This document shows, in pieces, positions 4,144 to 16,731 of a stretch of 64,000 nt of DNA. The stretch's first letter is position 1. Every line of letters begins with the position of its first letter. Under the pieces are notes generated by a model. That model did no database searches. It saw only the letters and a list, made by a program, of their open reading frames with translations, and was not told the origin of the DNA. Both the position numbers and the translations under genes were made by a program. The stretch covers positions 1-64,000 of the forward strand of contig DASZZN010000023.1 in assembly GCA_035544955.1 (NCBI GenBank), written 5' to 3'. The DNA comes from Candidatus Dormiibacterota bacterium (lineage in GTDB: Bacteria > Chloroflexota > Dormibacteria > CF-121).

Positions 4144-5841
4144 CTAGCGCAGGCCTCGGCGCTCGACCAATCGACGGACGGCGGCGCCGCTGTCGAGCCT
4201 GAGGGCTGCGCGAGCGGCGCGCGCGCATTCGGCGGCGTCAAGGCGCCGCACCAGGGCTTTGACCCGCGCGACGACCGGGGGGTGGACGCTCAGCTCATCG
4301 ACGCCCAGGCCCACCAGCACGGGCACGGCCCGGAGATCGCTGGCCATCTCGCCGCAGACGCCGACCCAGCGATGCCGCCGGTGCGCGGCTTTGACGACCT
4401 GGTCGATCATCCGCAGCAGCGCCGGGTGGAGGCTGTCCGCAAGCGGAGCCAGCTCGGGGTTGGTGCGGTCGGCAGCAAAGAGATATTGGGTGAGATCGTT
4501 CGTGCCGAGGCTGAAGAAGTCCACCTCGGCCGCCAGCACATCGGCGCCGACGGCCGCGGCCGGCACCTCGATCATGATGCCGACCGGCATCCCGGTCCCA
4601 TCAACCGCGCTCGGGTTGACGTCGCGCCTCGCCTGCGCAAGCAGCGCCTTCGCCTGGCGGAGTTCGTCGAGCGTGGACACCATCGGGAACATCAGGCGGA
4701 GCGGATGCCTGGAGGAGACGCGGAGGGCCGCGCGCAGCTGATCGAGCAGCAGGTCAGGCCGCCGCAGCAGCTGCAGCCGCAATCCCCGCACGCCCAGCGC
4801 CGGGTTGGCCTCGGGGGGTTGGGGCAGCGCGGGCAGCGGCTTGTCGGCCCCGACGTCGAGCGTTCGCAAGATCACCGGGCGCCCGCCCATGGCTGTGGCC
4901 ACGGCGTCGAGGACCGTGACCTGTTCGTCTTCCGACGGGAGGCGATCTGAACCGAGGAACAGAAACTCGCTCCGCAGCAGACCGATCCCATCGGCGCCGG
5001 CCGCGGCGGCTCGCTGCGCGTCGTCCAAGCCCGCGGCGTTGCATCCGACCTCGATCCGGCGGCCGTCACGCGTTACGGCCGGCTCGGCGTCGGTGGCGGC
5101 CTCCACCGCTTGAGGCACCATCGCGACGGCGTCGGCTGGAGGATCGATGACGAGGGTGCCCGCGTCCCCGTCGAGCAACACCGCCTGACCATCTTCGACC
5201 GCCTCGACGAGGCCGGCAATGCCGACTACGGCGGGGAGGCCCAGGGCTCGGGCGAGGATCGCGGTATGGGCTGTGGCGCTCCCTTGCTCGGTGGCAAAGC
5301 CGAGCACGAGTGCGCGGTCGAGCCCGGCGGTCTGCGAGGGCGCGAGATCGCGTGCCACGAGGATCGAGGGCTGCGGCGGGGGTGGCGGTGTGGCGCTCAC
5401 ACCGTGCAGCGCATGTCGGAGTTGTTCGACGACGTCCTCGACGTCGGCCGCCCGTGCCTGGAACACCGGATCGGGCGACGCGCGCAGCATTTCGGCAAAG
5501 GGGGCCATCGTGGCGGCGACTGCCTCATCCGCCGGCCTCCCCTGCGCCATCAATTCGGATGCCCCATCGAGTAATACGGGGTCATCGAGCATGAGGGTCT
5601 GCGCTTCGAGGATGCCGGCCTCCGCGGTCAAACCGCGTGCCTGAAGGCGTGCGGTCTTGGTCGCGAGATCAATTTTGACCTGTTCGATCGCACGGCCTAG
5701 CTGGTCAACGCCCTCCGCGCCAGATAGCCCACCGCTCGAAGGACCGAGCCGCGCGGCGTTCCATCGCCATACCGGCGCAACCACCCGCCCGGGAGCCGCC
5801 GCAATCCCTCGTAGGGCCGGGCGCGGCGGACTACTCGCCAA
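4144..5841 (-). CDS. ptsI: Phosphoenolpyruvate-protein phosphotransferase (PTS enzyme I)
   Basis: Enzyme I autophosphorylates from phosphoenolpyruvate and passes the phosphate to HPr in the cytoplasm. Seen here: the N-terminal motif GIAAAPG, the swivelling-domain active His in GSATAHTAILARALGLP (about residue 192), the PEP-binding barrel (GIGLLRSEFLFLG, GIMIEVPAAA, FFSLGTNDLTQY), and the C-terminal active Cys in GVCGEMASD (about residue 497). Length is normal for the family (about 565-575 residues). The start is uncertain. No ATG or GTG lies just before GIAAAPG, so I use an in-frame TTG at 5841 that overlaps the ptsH stop by 11 bases; an ATG at 5904 would overlap ptsH by 74 bases. No sugar-specific PTS permease is visible in the window, and the only phosphate acceptor nearby is DhaM at 16330. 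Confidence 0.92.
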   Translation of the reverse strand: MASSPPRPALRGIAAAPGRVVAPVWRWNAARLGPSSGGLSGAEGVDQLGRAIEQVKIDLATKTARLQARGLTAEAGILEAQTLMLDDPVLLDGASELMAQGRPADEAVAATMAPFAEMLRASPDPVFQARAADVEDVVEQLRHALHGVSATPPPPPQPSILVARDLAPSQTAGLDRALVLGFATEQGSATAHTAILARALGLPAVVGIAGLVEAVEDGQAVLLDGDAGTLVIDPPADAVAMVPQAVEAATDAEPAVTRDGRRIEVGCNAAGLDDAQRAAAAGADGIGLLRSEFLFLGSDRLPSEDEQVTVLDAVATAMGGRPVILRTLDVGADKPLPALPQPPEANPALGVRGLRLQLLRRPDLLLDQLRAALRVSSRHPLRLMFPMVSTLDELRQAKALLAQARRDVNPSAVDGTGMPVGIMIEVPAAAVGADVLAAEVDFFSLGTNDLTQYLFAADRTNPELAPLADSLHPALLRMIDQVVKAAHRRHRWVGVCGEMASDLRAVPVLVGLGVDELSVHPPVVARVKALVRRLDAAECARAARAALRLDSGAAVRRLVERRGLR

Positions 5842-6097
5842 AGTCGCGATCGACCAGGTCGGAAAGCGCCGCGATGGCCTCCTCCGCGTGGGGCCCGTCG
5901 GCACGCACCATGATCGTCGTCCCCTGGCTCACGCCGAGCGTCAGCACACCAAGCATGCTCTTCGCGTCTCGCACGGTGCCATCCTTGACCACTTCGATCT
6001 TCGTGTCCTTGAAGCGCGCGGCGGTCTGCACGAAGAGTGCGGCCGGCCGCGCATGCAGGCCGACCTTATTCGTAATCGTCAACGGACGTTCAGTGAT
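5831..6097 (-). CDS. ptsH: Phosphocarrier protein HPr, probably started by AUC
   Basis: HPr receives phosphate from enzyme I on a conserved His and passes it to EIIA-type domains. The core motif NKVGLHARPAAL and the regulatory-type Ser in DAKSMLGVLTLG are present. I place the start at an ATC at 6097: it puts the active His at residue 15, gives 88 residues as in typical HPr, and an AAGGAGG lies at 6115-6109. The spacing to the ATC is long (11 bases). The only upstream ATG (6145) would add 16 non-conserved residues, has no ribosome site, and sits right after a TTGACC that looks like the -35 of the gene's own promoter. If AUC is not used, the start must be 6145 or an internal TTG. Confidence 0.88.
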   Translation of the reverse strand: MTERPLTITNKVGLHARPAALFVQTAARFKDTKIEVVKDGTVRDAKSMLGVLTLGVSQGTTIMVRADGPHAEEAIAALSDLVDRDFGE

Positions 6098-6124
6098 CGC
6101 CTCGCTCGCCTCCTTCCATGCCGT

Positions 6125-6153
6125 AGTCTGCGACCCAGAGCGCATTCGGTCAA
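6125..6153 (-). promoter_or_regulatory. Candidate ptsHI promoter
   Basis: On the minus strand TTGACC (6153-6148) is followed after 17 bases by CAGACT (6130-6125). The -35 is near consensus and the -10 is weak (3 of 6). Transcription would start near 6118, downstream of the ATG at 6145, which favours the internal HPr start at 6097. Confidence 0.4.
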
Positions 6154-6255: not shown

Positions 6256-6873
6256 ATGGCCACTCGCGCGAACGTGACGCCGGCTCGCGCACAGGCCGTC
6301 GATCGATCGGTCACGCGCCTCTTCGAGGCCTTCGACCGCGTGCCGGTCGCGGCCCTCATCCGCCACGCCGAGGATCTTCCCCGGGCGCTGGCCTCGCAGG
6401 TCCCTGCGATCTTTTTCGTCCGCGCCCCCGCGTTTCATCTCGGGCCGCTCGTCTGGGCGGTCCAGGCCCGAGGCAAGATGGCCTTCGTCCATATCGACCT
6501 CATCGCCGGGCTGGGTAAGGATCGAGCCGGCGTCGCGTTCCTCGCCCGCGAGATCGGCGTCAACGGCATCATCACCTCCCACAGCGCCCTGGTGGCCGCC
6601 GCCCGGGCCGAGCGGGTGATCGCGGTGCAACGGCTCCTGCTCTATGACGATCTCGGACTGCACTCCGCGATGACCGCGGTCGAGCACGCGCGTCCCGACA
6701 TCGTCGAAGTGCAGCCGGCAGTGATCTTCCCGCTGGTCGCGGACCAGATCCGAGCACGCCACCCGGTCCCGATCATCGTCGGCGGCTTCGTGACCGAACC
6801 ACACCAGCGTCAGGCCGCGCTCGAGCGGGGGGCACGCGCGATCAGCACCAGCACGGTGAGCCTGTGGCCATGA
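6256..6873 (+). CDS. glpP: Glycerol-3-phosphate-responsive mRNA antiterminator GlpP (first of two)
   Basis: GlpP family proteins are TIM-barrel-like RNA-binding regulators. In Bacillus they respond to glycerol-3-phosphate and prevent termination in the leaders of glycerol genes. Family signatures are intact: KMAFVHIDLIAGLGKD, GVNGIITSHSALV, AVQRLLLYD, PDIVEVQPAVIFP, PIIVGGFV and GARAISTSTVSLW. The start chosen is ATG 6256, five bases after AGAGGAGG; a GTG at 6250 lies inside that ribosome site. It is transcribed away from ptsHI and overlaps the second glpP-like gene by four bases. Its likely target is the terminator at 7510-7559. Confidence 0.92.
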   Translation: MATRANVTPARAQAVDRSVTRLFEAFDRVPVAALIRHAEDLPRALASQVPAIFFVRAPAFHLGPLVWAVQARGKMAFVHIDLIAGLGKDRAGVAFLAREIGVNGIITSHSALVAAARAERVIAVQRLLLYDDLGLHSAMTAVEHARPDIVEVQPAVIFPLVADQIRARHPVPIIVGGFVTEPHQRQAALERGARAISTSTVSLWP

Positions 6874-7451
6874 GGACCGCCGGGCCGTCCGGCGCGATGT
6901 TGCCCGCCATCCGCGACAGCAATACCCTGCAACAAGCGCTCGACCTCGGATACCGGCAGCTACTGGTGGAGCGCGGCAGCGTGCTGGCGATGGTGGGGGC
7001 ACTGGCCGGTGCCGCCCGCCACGGCGTGGCGATCTTCGTCAACCTGGACGCGGTCGAGGGGCTGGCCGCGGATAGCGCGGCGCTCGCCTTCCTCGCCACC
7101 GATCTTGGCTTCTCCGGCGTGCTCTCGGTGAAGCCGCACCTCCTCCGCGATGCCAGCCGCTTCCGGTTGCGGACCATCCAGCGGATTCACGCCCTCGACT
7201 CCACCGGCCTGGAAACCGGGCTCAACAGCGTGGGCCTGCCGGCACCGTACGCGATCGCCATTGCACCCGCGGTGGCCATTCCGCAGGTGATGCCGACCAT
7301 CCGCGAAAGCACCAATGTTCCCGTGTGGGGCACTGGTTTCATCACCACCGCGGAGCAAGCCGCTGCCGTTCTGGCTGCTGGCGCGGATGTCGTGTCGAGC
7401 GCCGAGCTGAAGCTCTGGCGCGAGTTCCGGGACAACCGGATTGGAGATTGA
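6870..7451 (+). CDS. Second, divergent GlpP-like antiterminator
   Basis: A paralogue of the preceding gene (193 residues from ATG 6870, ATGA overlap). It keeps the fold signatures (VAIFVNLDAVEGLAAD, TIQRIHALD, VPVWGTGFIT, GADVVSSAELKLW). Positions conserved in the first copy are changed: the His of FVHIDL is Asn, SHS is replaced by VKP, and VEVQP is replaced by IAIAP. In the family these segments line the ligand pocket, so this copy may sense something else, act unliganded, or pair with the first copy as a heterodimer. That is inference. The stop codon lies inside the -35 box of the glpF promoter. Confidence 0.85.
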   Translation: MRTAGPSGAMLPAIRDSNTLQQALDLGYRQLLVERGSVLAMVGALAGAARHGVAIFVNLDAVEGLAADSAALAFLATDLGFSGVLSVKPHLLRDASRFRLRTIQRIHALDSTGLETGLNSVGLPAPYAIAIAPAVAIPQVMPTIRESTNVPVWGTGFITTAEQAAAVLAAGADVVSSAELKLWREFRDNRIGD

Positions 7452-7476
7452 CACAACCCCATTCGTGTGTTATCAC
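7448..7476 (+). promoter_or_regulatory. Promoter for the glpF-dha-glpK transcript
   Basis: A perfect TTGACA (7448-7453), exactly 17 bases, then TATCAC (7471-7476). Transcription would begin near 7483, after the glpP genes and before the terminator at 7510, so the leader terminator can act as an attenuator. Confidence 0.7.
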
Positions 7477-7509
7477 AAGCCTGCAGCGACTGGCGGGACA
7501 TGAAGGGAC

Positions 7510-7559
7510 AAGTCCTGACCTATGCGCTCCGAATGGAGCGTGCAGGTTAGGACTTTTTT
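7510..7559 (+). terminator. Intrinsic terminator in the glpF leader, probable GlpP antitermination target
   Basis: Left arm 7510-7530 and right arm 7535-7555 pair over about 20 base pairs with a single A/C mismatch (7522/7543), three G-U pairs and a GAAT loop. Six T residues follow (7554-7559). It lies between a good promoter and glpF, with 100 bases of untranslated leader after it. Known GlpP systems use exactly this promoter-terminator-glp order; GlpP binding here is inferred from position. The rest of 7452-7660 holds no gene that I can support, apart from the glpF ribosome site AGAGGAGGAGG just before 7661. Confidence 0.85.
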
Positions 7560-7660
7560 GTTGGGGAAAATCCGCCGAAGGAGGTGCAAAAGGGCTGCAG
7601 GACCGTCGTGTAGGCGTCATGGCGCGCGACATTTGGTCAAAAGAGAGGAGGAGGAAGTAA

Positions 7661-8560
7661 ATGGCGGTAAGCGAAAGCTGGACTAAGAAATACCTGGCAG
7701 AAGTGCTGGGAACATTCGTTCTGGTTTTCCTCGGCGACAGCTTTGTCGCCTTTGCGGTCGCGGGCGCCGGCGGGAATGGCTTCCTGGCCGGTCTGCTCGG
7801 GGCGGGATTTTTCTGGGGGTTCGCGGTCACCCTCGCGATCTACGCGTGCGGCGCAGTCTCCGGCGCGCATCTGAACCCCGCGGTCACGCTGTCCCTCGCC
7901 TGGCGCCGTGGTTTTCCATGGTCGAAGGTGCCTGGGTACATCGGATCCCAGCTCGTCGGCGCGTTCATCGCGGCGATGGGTGTCTCCTTCGTGTGGAACG
8001 GGATCATCGCCGCGTACGAAGACGCCAACAAGGTCGTGCGAGGCGACCCAAACGGGGTTACGAGCGGGTTGATCTTCTGGGCGAACTGGCCGCACCCGGG
8101 GCTTGTCGGGTGGGCGGGCCATCCGGCGCTCAAGGGCGGCCACGATTACCTGACGCAGGATCCATGGTGGCGGGGCGCCGGAACCGAGATCATCATCACC
8201 GCGATCCTGGTGATCTGCATCCTCGGGATCGTCGAGGACCGCATGCCGTCGGCGGCCAACCTGGCGCCGATCGCGATCGGCTTCGTCGTGGCCGCGCTGG
8301 TCGGCTTGTTTGCCCCGATCGAGATGGCATCCTTGAATCCGGCGCGTGATTTCGGGCCGCGGATCTGGGGGCTGTTGATCGGGTACGGCTCGAACGCGAT
8401 CCCGGGTCAGAACTTCAACTTCTTGATCACGACTGGGCTGCCGCTCATCGGCGGACCGCTCGGCGCGTGGATTTACGACTTCTTCATCCATCAGCACCTC
8501 CCGGCTCCCGTGGGTCCTGACACCGTTCCGGTCGCGGAATCGGCGCGGGCGCGGGCGTAA
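7661..8560 (+). CDS. glpF: Glycerol uptake facilitator (MIP/aquaporin family)
   Basis: A channel of the major intrinsic protein family that lets glycerol cross the cytoplasmic membrane. Both pore motifs are present: SGAHLNPAVTLSLA and the second half-helix ASLNPARDFGPR. The Asp after the second NPA-type motif is typical of glycerol-conducting members. Six hydrophobic segments flank them. At 299 residues it is slightly longer than E. coli GlpF, mostly in the loop after the third helix and at the C-terminus. AGAGGAGGAGG precedes the ATG. It heads the catabolic part of the operon, so control by the leader terminator would set uptake and metabolism together. Confidence 0.95.
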   Translation: MAVSESWTKKYLAEVLGTFVLVFLGDSFVAFAVAGAGGNGFLAGLLGAGFFWGFAVTLAIYACGAVSGAHLNPAVTLSLAWRRGFPWSKVPGYIGSQLVGAFIAAMGVSFVWNGIIAAYEDANKVVRGDPNGVTSGLIFWANWPHPGLVGWAGHPALKGGHDYLTQDPWWRGAGTEIIITAILVICILGIVEDRMPSAANLAPIAIGFVVAALVGLFAPIEMASLNPARDFGPRIWGLLIGYGSNAIPGQNFNFLITTGLPLIGGPLGAWIYDFFIHQHLPAPVGPDTVPVAESARARA

Positions 8561-8568
8561 GAGGATTC

Positions 8569-8859
8569 GTGTCTCGGCGGCTCAAGCGACAGATCGGTAA
8601 AGCCCCGGGCGGCGGGCGAGGGATCGAACCCTCGCCCCGCCCTCGGGCGGTTGCCCGTACGCCCCTCCAACGGCTGAATCGCATCCTCCTGATCGGGGGT
8701 GCCGGCCTGGCCATCGGCGCCGTGCTGCTTGCAGTGCTAACCCCGCCCTTCAAACCGGTGGCGCTCGGGATCAACCTGCTGGCCATCGGGCTGGGATTGC
8801 TGATGGGGAAAGGACTCGGACGATTCATGTTCCGACGCGTGTTGCCGGCCGGTAAGTAA
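8569..8859 (+). CDS. Small two-helix membrane protein in the glycerol operon
   Basis: 96 residues from a GTG at 8569, nine bases after glpF, with AAGAGGA upstream. The N-terminal 35 residues are basic and Pro/Arg-rich. Two hydrophobic segments follow (ILLIGGAGLAIGAVLLAVL and ALGINLLAIGLGLLMG), and the C-terminus is basic. I do not recognise a family. The position between glpF and dhaK and the tight spacing suggest it is co-expressed with glycerol uptake. Confidence 0.7.
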   Translation: MSRRLKRQIGKAPGGGRGIEPSPRPRAVARTPLQRLNRILLIGGAGLAIGAVLLAVLTPPFKPVALGINLLAIGLGLLMGKGLGRFMFRRVLPAGK

Positions 8860-8871
8860 GAGGAGGAAACG

Positions 8872-9900
8872 ATGGCACAAACGCAAGTAACGACCAGGCT
8901 CAAGAAGTTGATCAACACGCCGGAGACGGAGGTCAAAGACGCCATGGCCGGGATGGCTGCGGCGCACGCCGACCTGATCCGGGTGGAATACGACCCGAAC
9001 GTGATCATCCGCAAGGATGCACCGCGCAAAGGCAAGGTGGGCCTGGTGTCGGGGGGTGGCAGCGGTCACGAGCCGATGCACGGCGGCTACGTCGGGCTCG
9101 GGATGCTCGATGCGGCGTGTCCCGGCGCAGTGTTCACCTCGCCGACGCCTGACCAGATGGCGCGCGCGACGGCGGCGGTCGATGGCGGGGCCGGCGTCCT
9201 GCACGTCGTCAAGAACTACACGGGCGACATCATGAACTTCGAGATGGCGGCGGAGTTGGCGCGTGGAGAGGGCGCCAAAGTGAACGCGGTCATCACGAAC
9301 GACGACGTCGCGGTCCAGGACAGCCTCTACACGGCCGGGCGTCGTGGCGTGGGTGTCACCGTCCTGCTCGAAAAGATCGTCGGCGCCTCCGCCGAGGCCG
9401 GTGCGGACCTCGAGTCAGTGACGGCGCTGGCGAAGAAAGTGAACGCGAACGGCCGCAGCATGGGGATGGCGCTCACCTCCTGCATCGTGCCGGCGGCGGG
9501 CAAGGTAACGTTCGAAATCGCCGACGATGAGATGGAACTGGGCATCGGCATCCATGGCGAGCCCGGAAGGGAACGGACCAAGCTCAAGTCAGCCGACGAG
9601 ATTGCCGAGATCCTGACCAGCACCATCGTCAAGGACCTGCCCTACAAGCGCGGCGATGAGGTCCTCGCGTTCGTCAACGGCATGGGCGGGACGCCCCTGA
9701 TCGAGCTCTACGTGATCTTCAACGCGGTCCACCGCTACTTGACCGGCGAGGGGATCAAGGTGACCCGCTCACTGGTCGGTAACTACATCACCTCGCTGGA
9801 GATGGCGGGATGCTCGGTGACGCTGCTCAAGCTCGACGCTGAGACGACGAAGTTATGGGATGCGCCGGTGCACACCCCGGCCCTTCACTGGAAGGTCTAA
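8872..9900 (+). CDS. dhaK: PTS-dependent dihydroxyacetone kinase, DhaK subunit
   Basis: DhaK binds dihydroxyacetone covalently on a His and presents it to DhaL-ADP for phosphorylation. Signatures: [23 protein letters not shown] near the N-terminus, [12 protein letters not shown] with the catalytic Asp, and the substrate-binding His in GIGIHGEPG (about residue 228). The length (342) fits the two-subunit PTS type rather than the fused ATP-dependent kinase. GAGGAGGAAACG precedes the ATG. dhaL follows after five bases, and the third subunit, dhaM, is 6.4 kb downstream at the end of the gene run. Confidence 0.95.
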
Positions 9901-9905
9901 CACGA

Positions 9906-10568
9906 GTGGCGGTGACCAACGCGCAGATCTACGCCTGGCTGGAGCGCTATGCCGGCATCGTCGCCGAGCAGAAGCAGTACCTGACCGGGCTGGACGCCGC
10001 TATCGGCGACGGTGATCACGGCATCAACATGGACCGGGGCTTCCAGACCATGCTGGTCAAACTGGCCCCGGTTCGCGACAAGGACGTCGGCACCCTCCTC
10101 AAGACCACCGGCATGGCGCTCGTCGGTTCGGTGGGGGGTGCCGGTGGACCCCTGTACGGCACTTTTTTTCTGCGAGCCGGCGCCGCGCTGGATGGGAAGT
10201 CGGAGGTCTCGGACCGGGATCTCGTGGGTGCGCTCGAGGCGGGCCTGAAGGGTGTGGTGGAGCGAGGCAAGGCGAACCCCAACGACAAGACGATGGTCGA
10301 CGCGCTCACTCCCGCGATCGAGCAGGCCCGGCAATCGCTCGACAACGGAGCGCCATTGGAAACGGCGCTGGCCGCGGCGGCAGACGCGGCCGAGAAAGGG
10401 ATGAAGGCGACGATTCCGCTCAAAGCGCTGAAGGGACGCGCCAGCTACCTCGGCGATCGCAGCATTGGCCATCAGGACCCGGGCGCGACCTCGTCCTACC
10501 TGATGCTTCGGGCGCTGAGCGACAGCCTGGCGGCGGTACCCCAGCGAGCAAAAACGACGACGACGTAA
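9906..10568 (+). CDS. dhaL: Dihydroxyacetone kinase, ADP-binding DhaL subunit
   Basis: DhaL carries a tightly bound ADP that DhaM rephosphorylates; it then phosphorylates DHA held by DhaK. The Mg-ADP site [14 protein letters not shown] (about residues 34-47) with its three Asp/His ligands is intact, as are [15 protein letters not shown] and the C-terminal [16 protein letters not shown]. The start is GTG 9906, five bases after the dhaK stop; a GTG at 9912 is possible. Upstream in-frame starts lie within dhaK. About 220 residues, normal for the family. Confidence 0.94.
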
Positions 10569-10578
10569 GGAGGATGGA

Positions 10579-12138
10579 ATGGCGGAAAAGAAGTACGCGG
10601 CAGCCGTCGACCAGGGCACTACGGGGACGCGCTTCATGGTGTTCAGCCACGATGGCAAGGTCGTGTCCACCGATTACCTGGAGCACGAGCAGATCTATCC
10701 CAAGCCCGGATGGGTCGAGCACAACCCGACGGAGATCTGGGAGAAGACCCAGCGCGTGATCAGGGGCTCGATGCAGAAGGGCGGGATCAAGGCCGACGAG
10801 ATCTCGGGCATCGGCGTGACCAACCAGCGCGAGACCACGGTGGTCTGGGAGAAGAAGACCGGCAAGCCGGTCTACAACGCCATTGTGTGGCAGGATACCC
10901 GCACGATCGACATCTGTCAGAAGTTGATCAACGACGGTGTCGAGCCACTGGTCAAGAGTAAGACCGGTCTCGTCGTAGCCACCTATTTCTCGGGGCCGAA
11001 AATCCAGTGGATCCTCGACAACGTTTCGGGCGCGCGCGCCGCGGGCGAGCGCGGGGACCTGCTGTTCGGCAACATCGATACCTGGGTCATCTGGTGGCTG
11101 ACGGGTGGGCCCGAGGGTGGGGCGCACGTCACCGACTACAGCAACGCATCGCGCACGATGTTGATGGACCTCAAGACGCTCGACTGGGATGCGGAGCTGC
11201 TGAGCAAGATCAAGGTCCCGAAGGCCATGTTGCCCCAGATCCGGCCGTCGAGCGATAAGAAAGTCTACGGGCAGACGAAGGCGAACGGCGCCGTGGGCGG
11301 CGTTGTACCGGTGTGCGCGGACCTCGGCGACCAGCAGGCAGCCCTTTTCGGGCAGACCTGCTACTCACCGGGCGAAGCCAAGAACACCTACGGCACCGGC
11401 AACTTCATGCTGCTCAACACCGGGACCTCGCCCGTCCCCTCGAAGAGCGGTCTTTTGACCACGGCTGCCTACGGCCTGGAGCAGGGCAAGTCGGTGTACG
11501 CGTTGGAAGGCTCGATCGCCATCACCGGCGCGGCCATCCAGTGGCTCCGCGACAACCTCGGGCTGATCAAGGATGCCTCGGAGACCGAGGCCATCGCCAA
11601 GTCGGTCGAGGACGCCGGCGGCATCTACTTTGTCCCGGCGTTCTCCGGGCTGTTCGCACCGCACTGGGACATGTACGCCCGTGGCGCGATCGTCGGGCTG
11701 ACCCGCTACGTCACCAAGGCCCACATTGTGCGAGCCACGCTTGAGGCGATCTGCTACCAGACCAAGGAAGTCGCGGATGCGATGGAGGCGGACTCGGGCG
11801 TCAAGCTGACCACCCTCAAGGTGGACGGCGGGGCGGTCAAGAACGATTTCCTGATGCAGCTGCAGGCGGACATCCTGGGCGTCAAGGTCATTCGTCCCAA
11901 GGTGCAGGAGACGACGTCACTGGGCGCCGCCTACGGGGCCGGGCTGGCGACCGGCTTCTGGAGCACGCTGGACGAGCTGCGCAAGAACTGGCAGGTCGAC
12001 AAGGTGTTCGAGCCGAAGTCGACCGAAGAGCAACGCGCCGCAGGGCTCGCCGGTTGGAAGAAAGCCGTGCAGCGGACGCTCGGCTGGGTCGAGAAGGAAC
12101 CCGCAAAAGAGGCGGTCGGCGCGGGCGCAAAGTCGTAG
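10579..12138 (+). CDS. glpK: Glycerol kinase
   Basis: An FGGY-family kinase that makes sn-glycerol-3-phosphate, which is also the expected ligand of GlpP. Seen: the phosphate-binding loop [39 protein letters not shown], the domain-II signature [14 protein letters not shown], and the C-terminal [21 protein letters not shown]. 519 residues, slightly above the usual 500, with a Lys/Ala-rich tail. A GGAGG lies just before the ATG. The stop codon is followed by a terminator at 12156. Confidence 0.96.
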
Positions 12139-12193: not shown

Positions 12194-13855
12194 ATGCCTG
12201 ACACCAGCACGGGCGTTGTCGTCATCGGGGGTGGGTCGACGGGGGCCGGGGTGCTCCGCGATCTGGCCTTGCGCGGCATCGATGCCATCCTGGTCGAGAA
12301 GGGCGACCTGGCTTCGGGAACGACTGGCCGGTCGCATGGGCTCCTCCACTCGGGGGGACGGTACTGCGTCAACGATGAACAGGCCGCCATCGAGTGCGTG
12401 GAAGAAGGCCGGATCTTGCGCCGTATCGCCCGGAGCACCGTCGAGGATACCGGCGGATACTTCGTCTCAGTCACCGAAGAAGACCAGGCGTGGGAACCGA
12501 GGTTCGCCGAGGGCTGCCGCCGCACCGGCATCACCTGCGAACGGATTTCGGTCGATGAGGCGCGCCGGCGCGAACCGGCACTTTCCAAGCATGTCCGCAC
12601 CGTCTTCTGGGTTCCCGAGGACGGCCACCTCGACCCCTTCTACCTGGTCGTCGGCAACGTCGAATCGGCACGACGCCGGGGTGCCCGGGTGATGACCCAT
12701 ACCGAGGTCAGCGGCTTTCTTCGCGAGGGGGATCGCCTGACCGGCGTGCGCATCCGCGACTCGAAGACCCGCGAGGAAGGAACGATCGCGTGCCAGTCGG
12801 TGATCAACGCCACCGGCGCCTGGGCCGGACTGGTCGCCCGCCTGTTCGGCGTGGAGGTCAAGGTCGTTCCCGTCAAGGGAACCATGGTCGTCCTGTCCCG
12901 GCGGCTGGCGCACGCGGCGATCAATCGCTGCCACAAGCCGGGCGACGGCGACATCGTCGTTCCGGGACTGAGCGTGTCGATCCTCGGGACCACCTCGGCG
13001 AAGGTGCCGCACCCCGAAACCCTGCCCATCGAGTGGGACGAGGTGCGCCGCATGATCGAGGAGGGCGCCATGATGCTCGATGGCGTCACCACCGCCCGCG
13101 CGATGCGCGCCTACGCCGGGGTCCGGCCCCTCTACGACCTCGGAGCGGAAGCCGAGGGCCGTGAGATGAGTCGCAACTTCGCGGTGATCGACCACCAGGA
13201 GCGCGACGGCATTAAGGGGTTCACGTCAATCGTTGGCGGCAAAGTGACGACCTTTCGCCTGATGGCGGAGCGAGTCGTCGACGTGGCCGCTCGATACCTC
13301 GGCGTCAGCACGCCGTGCACCACGGCAGAGGTGCCGCTGAACGATCGAGACGAACCCCTCGACCAGTTGCGCCACCGCCCATCGGTGCTCGGCGTCCCCA
13401 AGCCGCATGATGAGGAACCACCCCTACAGCCCTTGCTGTGCGAGTGCGAGCTGGTGCGCCCGCAGGACGTCGCCCCCTGGTTCAAGGACCCGGCTGTGCA
13501 TGACCTGGAGGACGTCCGCCGCCGAACGCGCTCCGGAATGGGACCCTGTCAGGCCGCCATCTGCTCCTACCGGCTCGCGGCCCGGCTGGTCACCGACCGC
13601 GGCGTCGATGGTCCGACCGCGACCCGGGCAATGGCGGACTTTCTCGAGACACGCTGGCGTGGCGTGCGCCACGTCTTCTGGGGTAGCCAGCTGCGCAACA
13701 TGCAGGTCACGACCGGGCTTCACATGGAGCTTTACAACGTCGACCGGCAGCTCATGCTGGACCCCGTCGCCGGAACCTCCCCTCCCCCGCTCGCGGGGGA
13801 GGGGAGGGGTGGGGGTCTCGCCCAAGAACCGGCAGAAGTTGCGGCGCAGCGATGA
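12194..13855 (+). CDS. glpA: Anaerobic glycerol-3-phosphate dehydrogenase, catalytic subunit A
   Basis: A flavoprotein that oxidises glycerol-3-phosphate to DHAP and passes electrons through GlpB/GlpC to quinone. The FAD-binding VVVIGGGSTGAGV is at residues 8-20. The DAO fold continues with HGLLHSGGRYCVND and GAWAGLVARLFG. A BFD-like Cys-containing domain is at the C-terminus (LLCECELV near residue 414, GMGPCQAAIC near 452). The last 25 residues (SPPPLAGEGRGGG) are not part of the family; they are encoded by a GC-rich palindromic repeat inserted before the stop. No ribosome site precedes the ATG except one buried in the hairpin. glpB overlaps by four bases. Confidence 0.93.
   Translation: MPDTSTGVVVIGGGSTGAGVLRDLALRGIDAILVEKGDLASGTTGRSHGLLHSGGRYCVNDEQAAIECVEEGRILRRIARSTVEDTGGYFVSVTEEDQAWEPRFAEGCRRTGITCERISVDEARRREPALSKHVRTVFWVPEDGHLDPFYLVVGNVESARRRGARVMTHTEVSGFLREGDRLTGVRIRDSKTREEGTIACQSVINATGAWAGLVARLFGVEVKVVPVKGTMVVLSRRLAHAAINRCHKPGDGDIVVPGLSVSILGTTSAKVPHPETLPIEWDEVRRMIEEGAMMLDGVTTARAMRAYAGVRPLYDLGAEAEGREMSRNFAVIDHQERDGIKGFTSIVGGKVTTFRLMAERVVDVAARYLGVSTPCTTAEVPLNDRDEPLDQLRHRPSVLGVPKPHDEEPPLQPLLCECELVRPQDVAPWFKDPAVHDLEDVRRRTRSGMGPCQAAICSYRLAARLVTDRGVDGPTATRAMADFLETRWRGVRHVFWGSQLRNMQVTTGLHMELYNVDRQLMLDPVAGTSPPPLAGEGRGGGLAQEPAEVAAQR
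13776..13820 (+). repeat. GC-rich palindromic repeat inside the glpA 3' end
   Basis: A perfect 15-bp inverted repeat (13776-13790 and 13793-13807) is followed by GGTGGGGGTCTC. It matches the elements at 48966-48990 (minus strand) and 59370-59400 in layout: C-rich arm, G-rich arm, then a (TA)GGGGTGGGG tail. Here it is translated as the tail of GlpA. Confidence 0.7.
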
Positions 13856-15114
13856 AGACCGACGTCGCGGTGATCGGAACCGGCCTTGCGGCATTAGCGG
13901 CCGCACGCACCGTGCAGCAATCGGGACGCCAGGTGGTCCTCGTGTGGCCAGGCCTCTCTTCCCTCTACTTTCTATATGCGACCGTCGACGTCATGGGCTA
14001 CCCGACGGCGACCGCTGCCGAGGCGATCGCCGATCCGGCCGATGCCGTGGCGCGGCTGATCGCCCAGGAACCAAGCCATCCTTATGCGCGCGCCGGGATG
14101 AAGGCTGTCGAGGCGAGCATCGCGTTGATGCTCGAGTGGTTCAAGGAGGCGGGCCTCGCCTGGGAGGGAGCCCTCGACCGCAACTTCCTGCTGCCCACGG
14201 CGACCGGCACGCCCAAGCCATGCTGCCTGGCTCCCGCCAGCATGACCGCGGGCGACCTGGGCCGTCCAGAACCGATCGTCCTTTGCGGCTTTACTGGCTA
14301 CCAGGATTTCGCGCCCGAGTTCGCCGCCGCCAACCTGGCCCGACAGTGGCGCACGGCCGACGTGTCCGCGGTCCGCATCACCGCACCGGGGTATGGCCCC
14401 GACCGCCTCTTCACCTCGATCGACCTGGCGCGCAGTTTCGAAGACGCCGGCTTCAGGGATGCGGTGGCCGCCCAGTTGCGGGAACGCCTCACGAGTGAGG
14501 GCGTACGCGTCGGGGTCCCCGGCGTGCTGGGGCTCACCAACCCCAAGGAGATCTTCGCGGCGTTTCAGCGGGCCATCGGTCATCCGGTTTTCGAAATTCC
14601 GACCGTCCCACCGTCGGTCATCGCGCTCCGGCTCTTCGACCGGCTTCGCAAGCACCTGCAGGAGGCCGGCATCGAGATCATCTGGGCGGCACCGGCGCAC
14701 GCGGCCGATGTCACGGATGGGCACTGCCGGAACATCCTGCTCAAGGCGGCCGGCCACGAGCTTCCGGTCGAGGCCGCCTCCTACGTGGTGGCCCTGGAGG
14801 ATTGGGTGGATGGGGCGCTCCGCGCCGGCGTCCACACCGTGCGCGATCCCTTCTTCCACGAGCCCATCGCCTGGAGCAAAGTGCCGACCGATCGCACGGC
14901 CGAGTCGCTGTTTGCCACGCAGCCGTTCGAACAGGTCGGCTACGCGCTCACGGAGCGGCTCCAGCCCGCGGATGAGAATGGCAAGCCGCTGGCGCGGAAT
15001 GTCTTTTGCGCCGGAGGCGCGATGGCGGGATACGACCCATCGGGGACCAAGTCACGCGGCGGGTTGGCGATCGCCACCGGCTATCGCGCCGCCCAGGAGG
15101 CGCTCGCCGCATGA
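13852..15114 (+). CDS. glpB: Anaerobic glycerol-3-phosphate dehydrogenase subunit B
   Basis: The FMN/FAD-binding partner of GlpA that shuttles electrons to the membrane-associated GlpC. An N-terminal dinucleotide-binding motif (VAVIGTGLAALAAA) and a C-terminal FAD-contact segment (NVFCAGGAMAGYDPSGTKSRGG) are present. 420 residues, as usual for GlpB. The start codon overlaps the glpA stop and the stop overlaps the glpC start (ATGA at both ends), so the three subunits are translationally coupled. Confidence 0.9.
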   Translation: MKTDVAVIGTGLAALAAARTVQQSGRQVVLVWPGLSSLYFLYATVDVMGYPTATAAEAIADPADAVARLIAQEPSHPYARAGMKAVEASIALMLEWFKEAGLAWEGALDRNFLLPTATGTPKPCCLAPASMTAGDLGRPEPIVLCGFTGYQDFAPEFAAANLARQWRTADVSAVRITAPGYGPDRLFTSIDLARSFEDAGFRDAVAAQLRERLTSEGVRVGVPGVLGLTNPKEIFAAFQRAIGHPVFEIPTVPPSVIALRLFDRLRKHLQEAGIEIIWAAPAHAADVTDGHCRNILLKAAGHELPVEAASYVVALEDWVDGALRAGVHTVRDPFFHEPIAWSKVPTDRTAESLFATQPFEQVGYALTERLQPADENGKPLARNVFCAGGAMAGYDPSGTKSRGGLAIATGYRAAQEALAA

Positions 15115-16343
15115 TCACCGAAGAGTTCGAGCCCACGACGGACACGGTCGAGGAGGAAGCCTCCGTCGAGGCCTGCACCAAGTGCACCGCTTGCAACACG
15201 GTCTGTCCGGTCGCCCGCTCGACCGACATCTTCCGTGGTCCCAAGGCGCTCGGCCCCGACATGGAGCGCTTTCGTTCGCCGCAGGAGGCCGCGGTCACGC
15301 CGGGGCTCGACCTCTGCTCCGGGTGCAAGCTCTGCGAGGTCACCTGTCCGTCGCAGGTCAGCATTCAGGAATACATCCGGCGCGCGCAAAACCAGGGCGC
15401 CCGCGAAAAAGGGCGCAGCCTTCGGGACTGGGTGCTGGGGCGGACGAGGCTGCTCGGAAAGCTGGGCAGCATGACGGCCCCGCTCGCCAACTTCGGGAAT
15501 AGCAACCCGCTGTTCCGCGTGCTGATGGAGCGATTCGTCGGCATCCACCGGCGGCGGCCGCTGCCAAAGTATCAGTGGCTCACCTTCGAGCGATGGTTCA
15601 GGCGCCACCCCCGACCCGTCAAACCTCGCCGAAAGGTGGCGTACTTCTACGGCTGCTGGGTCAACTACAACGACCGGCGGCTCGGTGAGCGGGCGGTTGC
15701 CGTTCTCGAGCGCAATGGCATCGAGGTCGTCGTCCCGCGCCAGCAGTGCTGCGGGATCCCCGCGGTGGTCAACTCGAACATGGATCTCGCCCGCCGGTAT
15801 GGCCAGGAGAATGTCAGGCATCTGACCCCGATCGTCGAGGAGATGGACATCGTCGCCAGCTCCACCTCCTGCGGGCTGATGTTGAAGCACGACTACGGCC
15901 ACCTGCTCGAAATCCCCGGCTCCGAGCGCCTCGGCGCGAAAACCTACGACATCATGGAGTACCTGTGGATGTTGCACGAGGCCGGCGAGCTGGACCTCAA
16001 CTTCGAGACTGTGCCAATGCGTCTGCTGTATCACGCGCCCTGCCATCTGAAGTCCCACGGGATCGGCTACCCAGCGATGCGCCTGCTGAAGTTGATTCCC
16101 GGCGTCAAGCTCGAAGAAGTCGACGAGGGGTGCTGTGGCATCTCCGGCACCTTTGGTGTCAAGGTCGAGAAGTACGACCTCTCGATGAAGATCGGCAGCC
16201 GTCTCTTCGCAGCCGTCAAGGCCGCAGGTAGTGACCAGGTGCTTGCCGACTGCGAGACCTGCCGGATGCAAGTCGAGCACGGGACCGGCGCGACATCGGC
16301 CCACCCGCTCGAGATCCTGGCGAGGGCGTATGGGCACGGTTAG
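15111..16343 (+). CDS. glpC: Anaerobic glycerol-3-phosphate dehydrogenase, iron-sulfur subunit C
   Basis: Links the dehydrogenase to the quinone pool at the inner face of the membrane. Two 4Fe-4S motifs are visible (CTKCTACNTVCP near residue 22 and CSGCKLCEVTCP near residue 68). Two CCG domains follow, with CCGIPAV near residue 213 and GCCGISGTFG near residue 340. The ATG at 15111 gives 410 residues, close to the family norm; an in-frame upstream ATG at 15006 lies inside glpB. dhaM starts within its last 14 bases. Confidence 0.93.
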   Translation: MITEEFEPTTDTVEEEASVEACTKCTACNTVCPVARSTDIFRGPKALGPDMERFRSPQEAAVTPGLDLCSGCKLCEVTCPSQVSIQEYIRRAQNQGAREKGRSLRDWVLGRTRLLGKLGSMTAPLANFGNSNPLFRVLMERFVGIHRRRPLPKYQWLTFERWFRRHPRPVKPRRKVAYFYGCWVNYNDRRLGERAVAVLERNGIEVVVPRQQCCGIPAVVNSNMDLARRYGQENVRHLTPIVEEMDIVASSTSCGLMLKHDYGHLLEIPGSERLGAKTYDIMEYLWMLHEAGELDLNFETVPMRLLYHAPCHLKSHGIGYPAMRLLKLIPGVKLEEVDEGCCGISGTFGVKVEKYDLSMKIGSRLFAAVKAAGSDQVLADCETCRMQVEHGTGATSAHPLEILARAYGHG

Positions 16344-16731
16344 CATGGTGCTCGTCTCGCACAGCCGCCAGCTGGCAGAAGGGGTGCGCGAGCTCGCGGC
16401 GCAGATGACGCAGGGTAAGGTGAAGATCGCGGTCGCCGGCGGCACCGCCGACGGCCGGCTGGGGACCGATGCCACCGCGATTCTGGGCGCGATCGAAGAG
16501 GTCCGCGGGCCGGAAGGCGTGCTCATCCTCGTCGACCTCGGTAGCGCCGTGCTCAGTACGCAGATGGCAATGGAGCAGCTCTCGGACGGGAAGGGCCGCG
16601 TGCTGCTCAGCAACGCACCCTTCGTCGAAGGGGCGGTGATCGCCGCCGTCGAGGCGTCGATCGACAGTGACCTCGAGGCCGTCGCAGCGGCGGCGCTGGG
16701 GGCGCGCGAGATGGAAAAGGTGTCGCCCTAG
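16330..16731 (+). CDS. dhaM: Single-domain DhaM, PTS phosphotransfer subunit for dihydroxyacetone kinase
   Basis: An EIIA-mannose-type domain of about 133 residues. The phosphorylated His is in MVLVSHSRQLAEG (residue 11), and family motifs GTADGRLGTDA and VLILVDLGSAVLS follow. It takes phosphate from HPr and rephosphorylates DhaL-ADP. E. coli DhaM is fused to HPr-like and EI-like domains; those are absent here, and free HPr and EI are encoded at 4144-6097. The start is ATG 16330 (14-base overlap with glpC) or ATG 16345. Confidence 0.92.
   Translation: MGTVSMVLVSHSRQLAEGVRELAAQMTQGKVKIAVAGGTADGRLGTDATAILGAIEEVRGPEGVLILVDLGSAVLSTQMAMEQLSDGKGRVLLSNAPFVEGAVIAAVEASIDSDLEAVAAAALGAREMEKVSP

Follow-up and report, generated by a model that had tools for sequence, protein, structure and literature searches.

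A probable GlpP-type attenuator with two GlpP paralogues ahead of a glycerol and dihydroxyacetone operon in a soil Chloroflexota bacterium

The stretch of DNA considered here (the window; 64,000 nucleotides from a genome assigned to Candidatus Dormiibacterota) carries two genes for proteins of the GlpP family, glpP1 and glpP2, which lie head to tail, share four bases (ATGA) and precede the glycerol facilitator gene glpF (Table 1). Both products exceed the curated cut-off of 27 bits for PF04309, in agreement with a preliminary description of this DNA, which had placed a tandem GlpP pair at these coordinates from the sequence alone. A genome-wide profile search returned these two PF04309 proteins only. 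The operon on the 3′ side of the leader combines functions for glycerol and dihydroxyacetone, in the order glpF, a 96-aa open reading frame, dhaK, dhaL, glpK, glpA, glpB, glpC and a DhaM-like gene; the small open reading frame shows about 61–85% identity within the family. Genes for HPr and PtsI (4144–6145) are located upstream and are divergent from the glp operon. Together with the DhaM-like EIIA at the operon end, they mean that a complete PTS-driven dihydroxyacetone kinase is seemingly encoded around the attenuator. Elsewhere in the window, an open reading frame at 425–988 consists mostly of Val-Gly repeats and arises from a simple GT-rich DNA repeat.

Table 1. Genes and leader features of the glp region, with positions in the window.
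Feature	Coordinates	Strand	Basis or remark
glpP1, type A GlpP, 205 aa	6256..6873	+	PF04309 156.4 bits, tree, residues
glpP2, type B GlpP, 193 aa	6870..7451	+	PF04309 122.4 bits, tree, residues, dN/dS
glpF operon promoter, TTGACA-N17-TATCAC	7448..7476	+	conserved in 14 loci
P1, GGCGGGAC, antiterminator 5′ arm, core GGGAC 7495-7499	7492..7499	+	
Antiterminator loop of 12 nt (13 nt in most relatives)	7500..7511	+	conserved
Terminator hairpin, 20 bp, P3 AGGAC within 3′ arm	7510..7555	+	folding, helix conservation
P2, GTCCTGACC, common to antiterminator 3′ arm and terminator 5′ arm	7512..7520	+	
U-tract, T6, first two U also paired in hairpin	7554..7559	+	
AAGGAGGTG block	7578..7586	+	conserved; glpF has separate ribosome site
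glpF, glycerol facilitator	7661..8560	+	PF00230
96-aa ORF between glpF and dhaK	8569..8859	+	no Pfam match; kept in family
dhaK	8872..9900	+	PF02733
dhaL	9894..10568	+	PF02734
glpK, glycerol kinase	10579..12138	+	PF00370/PF02782
glpA-like G3P dehydrogenase subunit	12194..13855	+	PF01266 and Fer2_BFD
glpB-like subunit	13852..15114	+	PF00890
glpC-like Fe-S subunit, start codon uncertain	15111..16343	+	CCG and Fer4 domains
EIIA-man domain, DhaM-like	16345..16683	+	PF03610 97 bits

In the glpF promoter, the −35 element TTGACA (7448–7453) overlaps the stop codon of glpP2 and is followed, after a spacer of 17, by the −10 element TATCAC (7471–7476). Beyond it lies the terminator hairpin, with 12 + 8 = 20 pairs, one 1x1 mismatch and a predicted energy of −32.3 kcal/mol, which ranks first among 22 candidates for a hairpin with a T-run in the window. 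The fold of the leader as a whole (7480–7660) has a z-score of −4.0. A promoter and then a terminator thus stand ahead of a glp gene, the order that characterizes a GlpP attenuator. Both had been read from the sequence in the preliminary description; a simple consensus scanner run on the window listed neither of them, an Rfam search of the leader gave no match and an NCBIfam search returned nothing useful.

An invariant stretch just 5′ of the hairpin led us to suspect a second structure, and here the analysis adds an alternative fold that had been missed. The GGGAC core of P1 can pair with GTCCT of P2 (7512–7516), and within the window's family this pairing extends to GGCGGGAC with GTCCTG-A-CC. 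Since P2 also lies in the 5′ arm of the terminator, where it pairs with P3, antiterminator and terminator are mutually exclusive. Predicted energies in the window are about −32 kcal/mol for the terminator and about −11 kcal/mol for the antiterminator (7492–7520), and in 12 of 12 elements compared, drawn from all five families described below, the terminator is the stabler of the two (−18 to −32 versus −5 to −11 kcal/mol). This suggests that termination is the default and that the antiterminator needs to be stabilized by something. Conservation and predicted energies together support an antiterminator that would exclude the terminator, and its loop is a likely GlpP-binding site.

Within the leader, the AAGGAGGTG block lies about 20 nt past the U-tract and 75 nt 5′ of the glpF start, and its AGGAGGTG portion is invariant in 14 loci. 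It resembles a STAB-SD mRNA-stability element; no such block was seen in the leaders of other families. A leader peptide starting from the GTG of this block was considered and rejected, as inspection of the aligned leaders by eye found the frame broken in one of them (L031).

Comparison with close relatives, the nearest of which by DNA are metagenome-assembled genomes from soil, gave consistent results. The glpP pair is found in 13 of the 15 genomes of the genus (the window's own included) and in two of three others of the family, and gene order is identical at every family locus as far as contigs extend. The two congeners lacking the pair are G010 and G004; G004 has the leader element, but its contig ends only 40 bases away, and the glpP genes could merely be missing from the assembly. 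Loss of the hairpin in related genomes had been named in advance as a result that would count against attenuation, but promoter and hairpin are kept in every one of the 13 relatives whose sequence includes the region. The −10 element reads TATGAC or TATGAA in these relatives and TAAGAC in one. When 14 leaders were aligned, almost no variation was seen in TTGACA, the spacing of 17 bp, TGTG.TA, the hairpin or the long segment that precedes it.

The preliminary description had also proposed a comparative search for tandem glpP genes beside glpF leaders, and this search found the pair and the element, in the order P1-loop-P2-P3-U, in five families of Chloroflexota: the window's family (f1), a second family of the same class (f3) and three further ones (f21, f19 and f12). 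Outside these blocks the leaders of f3, f21, f19 and f12 barely align. Of 37 elements, 31 have a loop of 13 nt and the remainder one of 12 or 14 nt, and the element pattern matched 29 times in 354 kb, compared with 0.2 matches expected from Markov-shuffled sequence. In the terminator helix 93% of cells are paired, with 23 cells changed on both sides. The antiterminator is 95% paired. Its core pairs vary so little that covariation is unable to prove them; the single variable pair that is well preserved reads GU, AU or GC in 31 of 32 cases.

A covariance model placed one site in the window's genome, the glpF leader element. Applied to 400 genomes of the phylum with a threshold of E<1e-4, it detected the element in 30 of the 32 that encode multiple GlpPs and in 3 of the remaining 368. 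This association is partly circular, because both the regular expression and the covariance model were derived from loci near glpP; no such circularity affects the glpD sites or the genomes without GlpP. Of the two misses, one has a contig that stops inside glpP2 (G011) and the other carries a divergent version, GGGAC-N14-GTCCC (G267). In the three genomes with a single GlpP (families f55 and f80), the model found no element. Besides glpF, the genes that follow the element are dhaK in f21 and, in f19, glpD, glpK-glpF or a B-type glpP-glpK-glpF. Another element (L151:3733-3813) precedes a gene for a 613-aa alpha/beta hydrolase, perhaps an esterase freeing glycerol.

These distributions bear on two other explanations of the hairpin. 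It lies directly 3′ of glpP2 and might be a mere terminator of the glpP operon, with glpF expressed from elsewhere, but this is very improbable given the conserved promoter 5′ of the hairpin, the conserved antiterminator partner and the presence of the same element ahead of glpD and dhaK. Alternatively, the element could be read by a factor other than GlpP, such as a small riboswitch or another RNA-binding protein. Three g202 genomes (a genus of f19) keep an intact element 5′ of glpD (L145:4540-4620, L146:4734-4814 and L147:4921-5001) without GlpP, and do not fit neatly with a GlpP reading. One of them, G372, contains a 35-residue PF04309 remnant, which hints at loss of glpP. This remnant, the co-occurrence of the element with the GlpP pair, and a 13-nt loop that we judge small for a riboswitch make a reader other than GlpP improbable.

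The two paralogues have distinct histories. In a tree of 56 GlpPs, all type A proteins, including GlpP1, form one clade (support 100/99) and all type B proteins, including GlpP2, form another (99/97), both separate from the GlpPs of Bacillota and Fusobacteriota and from single-copy GlpPs of Chloroflexota. The A and B clades agree in their branching, pairing f3 with f21 and placing f12 together with f19, the pattern that joint inheritance of A and B would produce, and B was never found without A among the typed genomes, which are part of the 32 with multiple GlpPs. The arrangement varies: A and B are in tandem in f1, f3 and f21; in most of f19, A is divergent and B lies behind the element; and in f12 they are on separate contigs. 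A plasmid search for type B outside Chloroflexota gave no match to GlpP2, compared with 40 records for GlpP1. The sequences indicate that the B clade is ancient and has been kept in five families. Within the window's family, dN/dS is 0.148 for glpP1, 0.152 for glpP2 and 0.171 for glpF, and B is under the same purifying constraint as A and glpF. The loss of conserved residues described next might suggest that GlpP2 is a duplicate that is redundant or in decay, an idea that we reject as extremely improbable on the basis of this constraint and the retention of its clade.

Conserved residues set the two types apart. His79, Asp81, Glu151 and Gly176-Gly177 (GlpP1 numbering) do not vary among 24 A proteins and hardly vary among nine other GlpPs, and GlpP1, with its putative sensor residues intact, has them all. 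In 23 of 23 B proteins, three of these have been exchanged: His79 for Asn or Asp, Glu151 mostly for Ala, Asp or Asn, and Gly176, the first Gly, for Ser, Thr or Tyr. From their place in the TIM-barrel family, we infer that His79, Glu151 and Gly176 line the pocket for glycerol 3-phosphate (G3P). The putative pocket is altered in GlpP2, which we therefore describe as a GlpP homologue and at most a candidate G3P sensor. Type B proteins retain the Asp, the Gly and most Arg positions of the family and have an invariant D-S-T-G of their own. Two losses of pocket residues had previously been claimed for GlpP2: the change from His to Asn is real and conserved, but the change from SHS to VKP lies in a stretch that varies among GlpPs, with IKP in the Thermotoga maritima protein 1vkf, and was rejected as non-diagnostic. 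Glu151 and Gly176 are better markers of an altered pocket. Single-chain structure predictions (pLDDT 68 for GlpP1 and 52 for GlpP2) were too poor for a fold search.

GlpP is the classic antiterminator responsive to G3P. In Bacillus subtilis, G3P-bound GlpP acts on the antiterminator and terminator of leader RNAs (PMC7430163, PMC9604022). The system that controls glpD, glpFK and glpT there shares with the one described here a PF04309 regulator and a leader with promoter, GlpP site (putative in Chloroflexota) and terminator, and G3P-bound GlpP, which disrupts the terminator there, would do the same here (PMC9604022, PMC7430163). It has one GlpP where the Chloroflexota have paralogues A and B. 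Leader sequences also differ, and model R1 found no significant match at seven GlpP loci of Bacillota and Fusobacteriota. Possible short P1-P2 helices with purine-rich loops of 13–15 nt can be picked out by eye in Bacillota glp leaders, but are a lead only, since helices of 3–4 bp easily arise by chance. LicT, SacY and GlcT work in the way proposed here, the protein stabilizing an antiterminator hairpin whose sequence is partly shared with a terminator; however, they are an unrelated protein family, and the Chloroflexota pair, which belongs to PF04309 and lacks CAT or PRD domains, is not a member.

The preliminary description had remarked on this layout in a lineage outside Firmicutes; GlpP outside Firmicutes is already known from Thermotoga (PMC3750489), in a comparative study of sugar regulons from which the GlpP regulon was expressly excluded. 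The T. maritima GlpP (1vkf family) is related by sequence, PF04309 matches occur in E. coli and C. glutamicum, and there are GlpP records in Streptomyces and Fusobacterium. Our literature search, which covered open-access papers, turned up neither paired GlpP paralogues nor this RNA element. Relative to those papers, GlpP attenuation and the presence of GlpP outside Firmicutes are established, and what is new is an ancient second GlpP with a putatively altered pocket that, among the genomes typed, occurs only together with the first.

Taken together, we consider it likely that this soil bacterium uses a GlpP-type attenuator in which G3P-GlpP antitermination of the Bacillus kind has been elaborated into a system of two paralogues; the attenuation proposed ahead of glpF is strongly supported. 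RNA polymerase would initiate at the conserved promoter and, in the free leader, the terminator would outcompete the antiterminator, so that transcription of glpF-dhaK-dhaL-glpK-glpABC-dhaM would halt at the U-tract. When G3P, the inferred ligand, builds up, GlpP would bind the P1-loop-P2 hairpin and keep P2 (GTCCT) off P3 (AGGAC), allowing transcription to proceed. GlpP1 is likely to be the G3P sensor, judging from its conserved residues. GlpP2, supplied by the overlapping gene as a co-inherited partner, would most likely act on the RNA together with GlpP1, as a subunit that senses differently or not at all.

The earlier suggestion that the pair may form a heteromeric or two-signal switch gains some support from the ancient pairing of A and B and by the four-base gene overlap. 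Other roles for B can be weighed against that of a partner subunit. One is that A and B are separate antiterminators of the same leader, with A responding to G3P and B to a different triose (e.g. dihydroxyacetone phosphate), so that either glycerol route could open the operon. The family positions retained in B and its own invariant motif are consistent with this, as are the presence of both GlpK/GlpABC and DhaKLM routes in the operon and the position of the element before dhaK in f21; in most f19 loci, however, B accompanies glpK-glpF without dha genes, and we regard separate antiterminators as rather unlikely. Less likely again is that B is a feedback modulator of A, for example dominant-negative or titrating, instead of a positive partner. 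Feedback is conceivable because B in f19 lies behind the element, with A divergent, and is hence itself induced, but B is encoded ahead of the attenuator in f1, f3 and f21, where it is made together with A. The overlap of the glpP genes in f1 favors a partner subunit, and this is the role that we prefer. We tentatively propose, as a possibility that falls somewhat short of even chances, that at least five Chloroflexota families have a two-subunit switch, with A as the intact G3P sensor and B as an ancient pseudo-sensor, and that the two together recognize a hairpin of GGAC, a 13-nt loop and GUCC.

These loci offer a compact and testable RNA signature across five families (RGGAC, a 12–14-nt loop, GUCCY, then RGGRC-U), along with naturally paired A and B proteins, one of which lacks some conserved residues of the putative pocket, having retained others over deep time. 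With this pair and this signature, RNA binding and ligand sensing may be separable by experiment. If the two-subunit switch is correct, RNA recognition and metabolite sensing would be split between paralogues.
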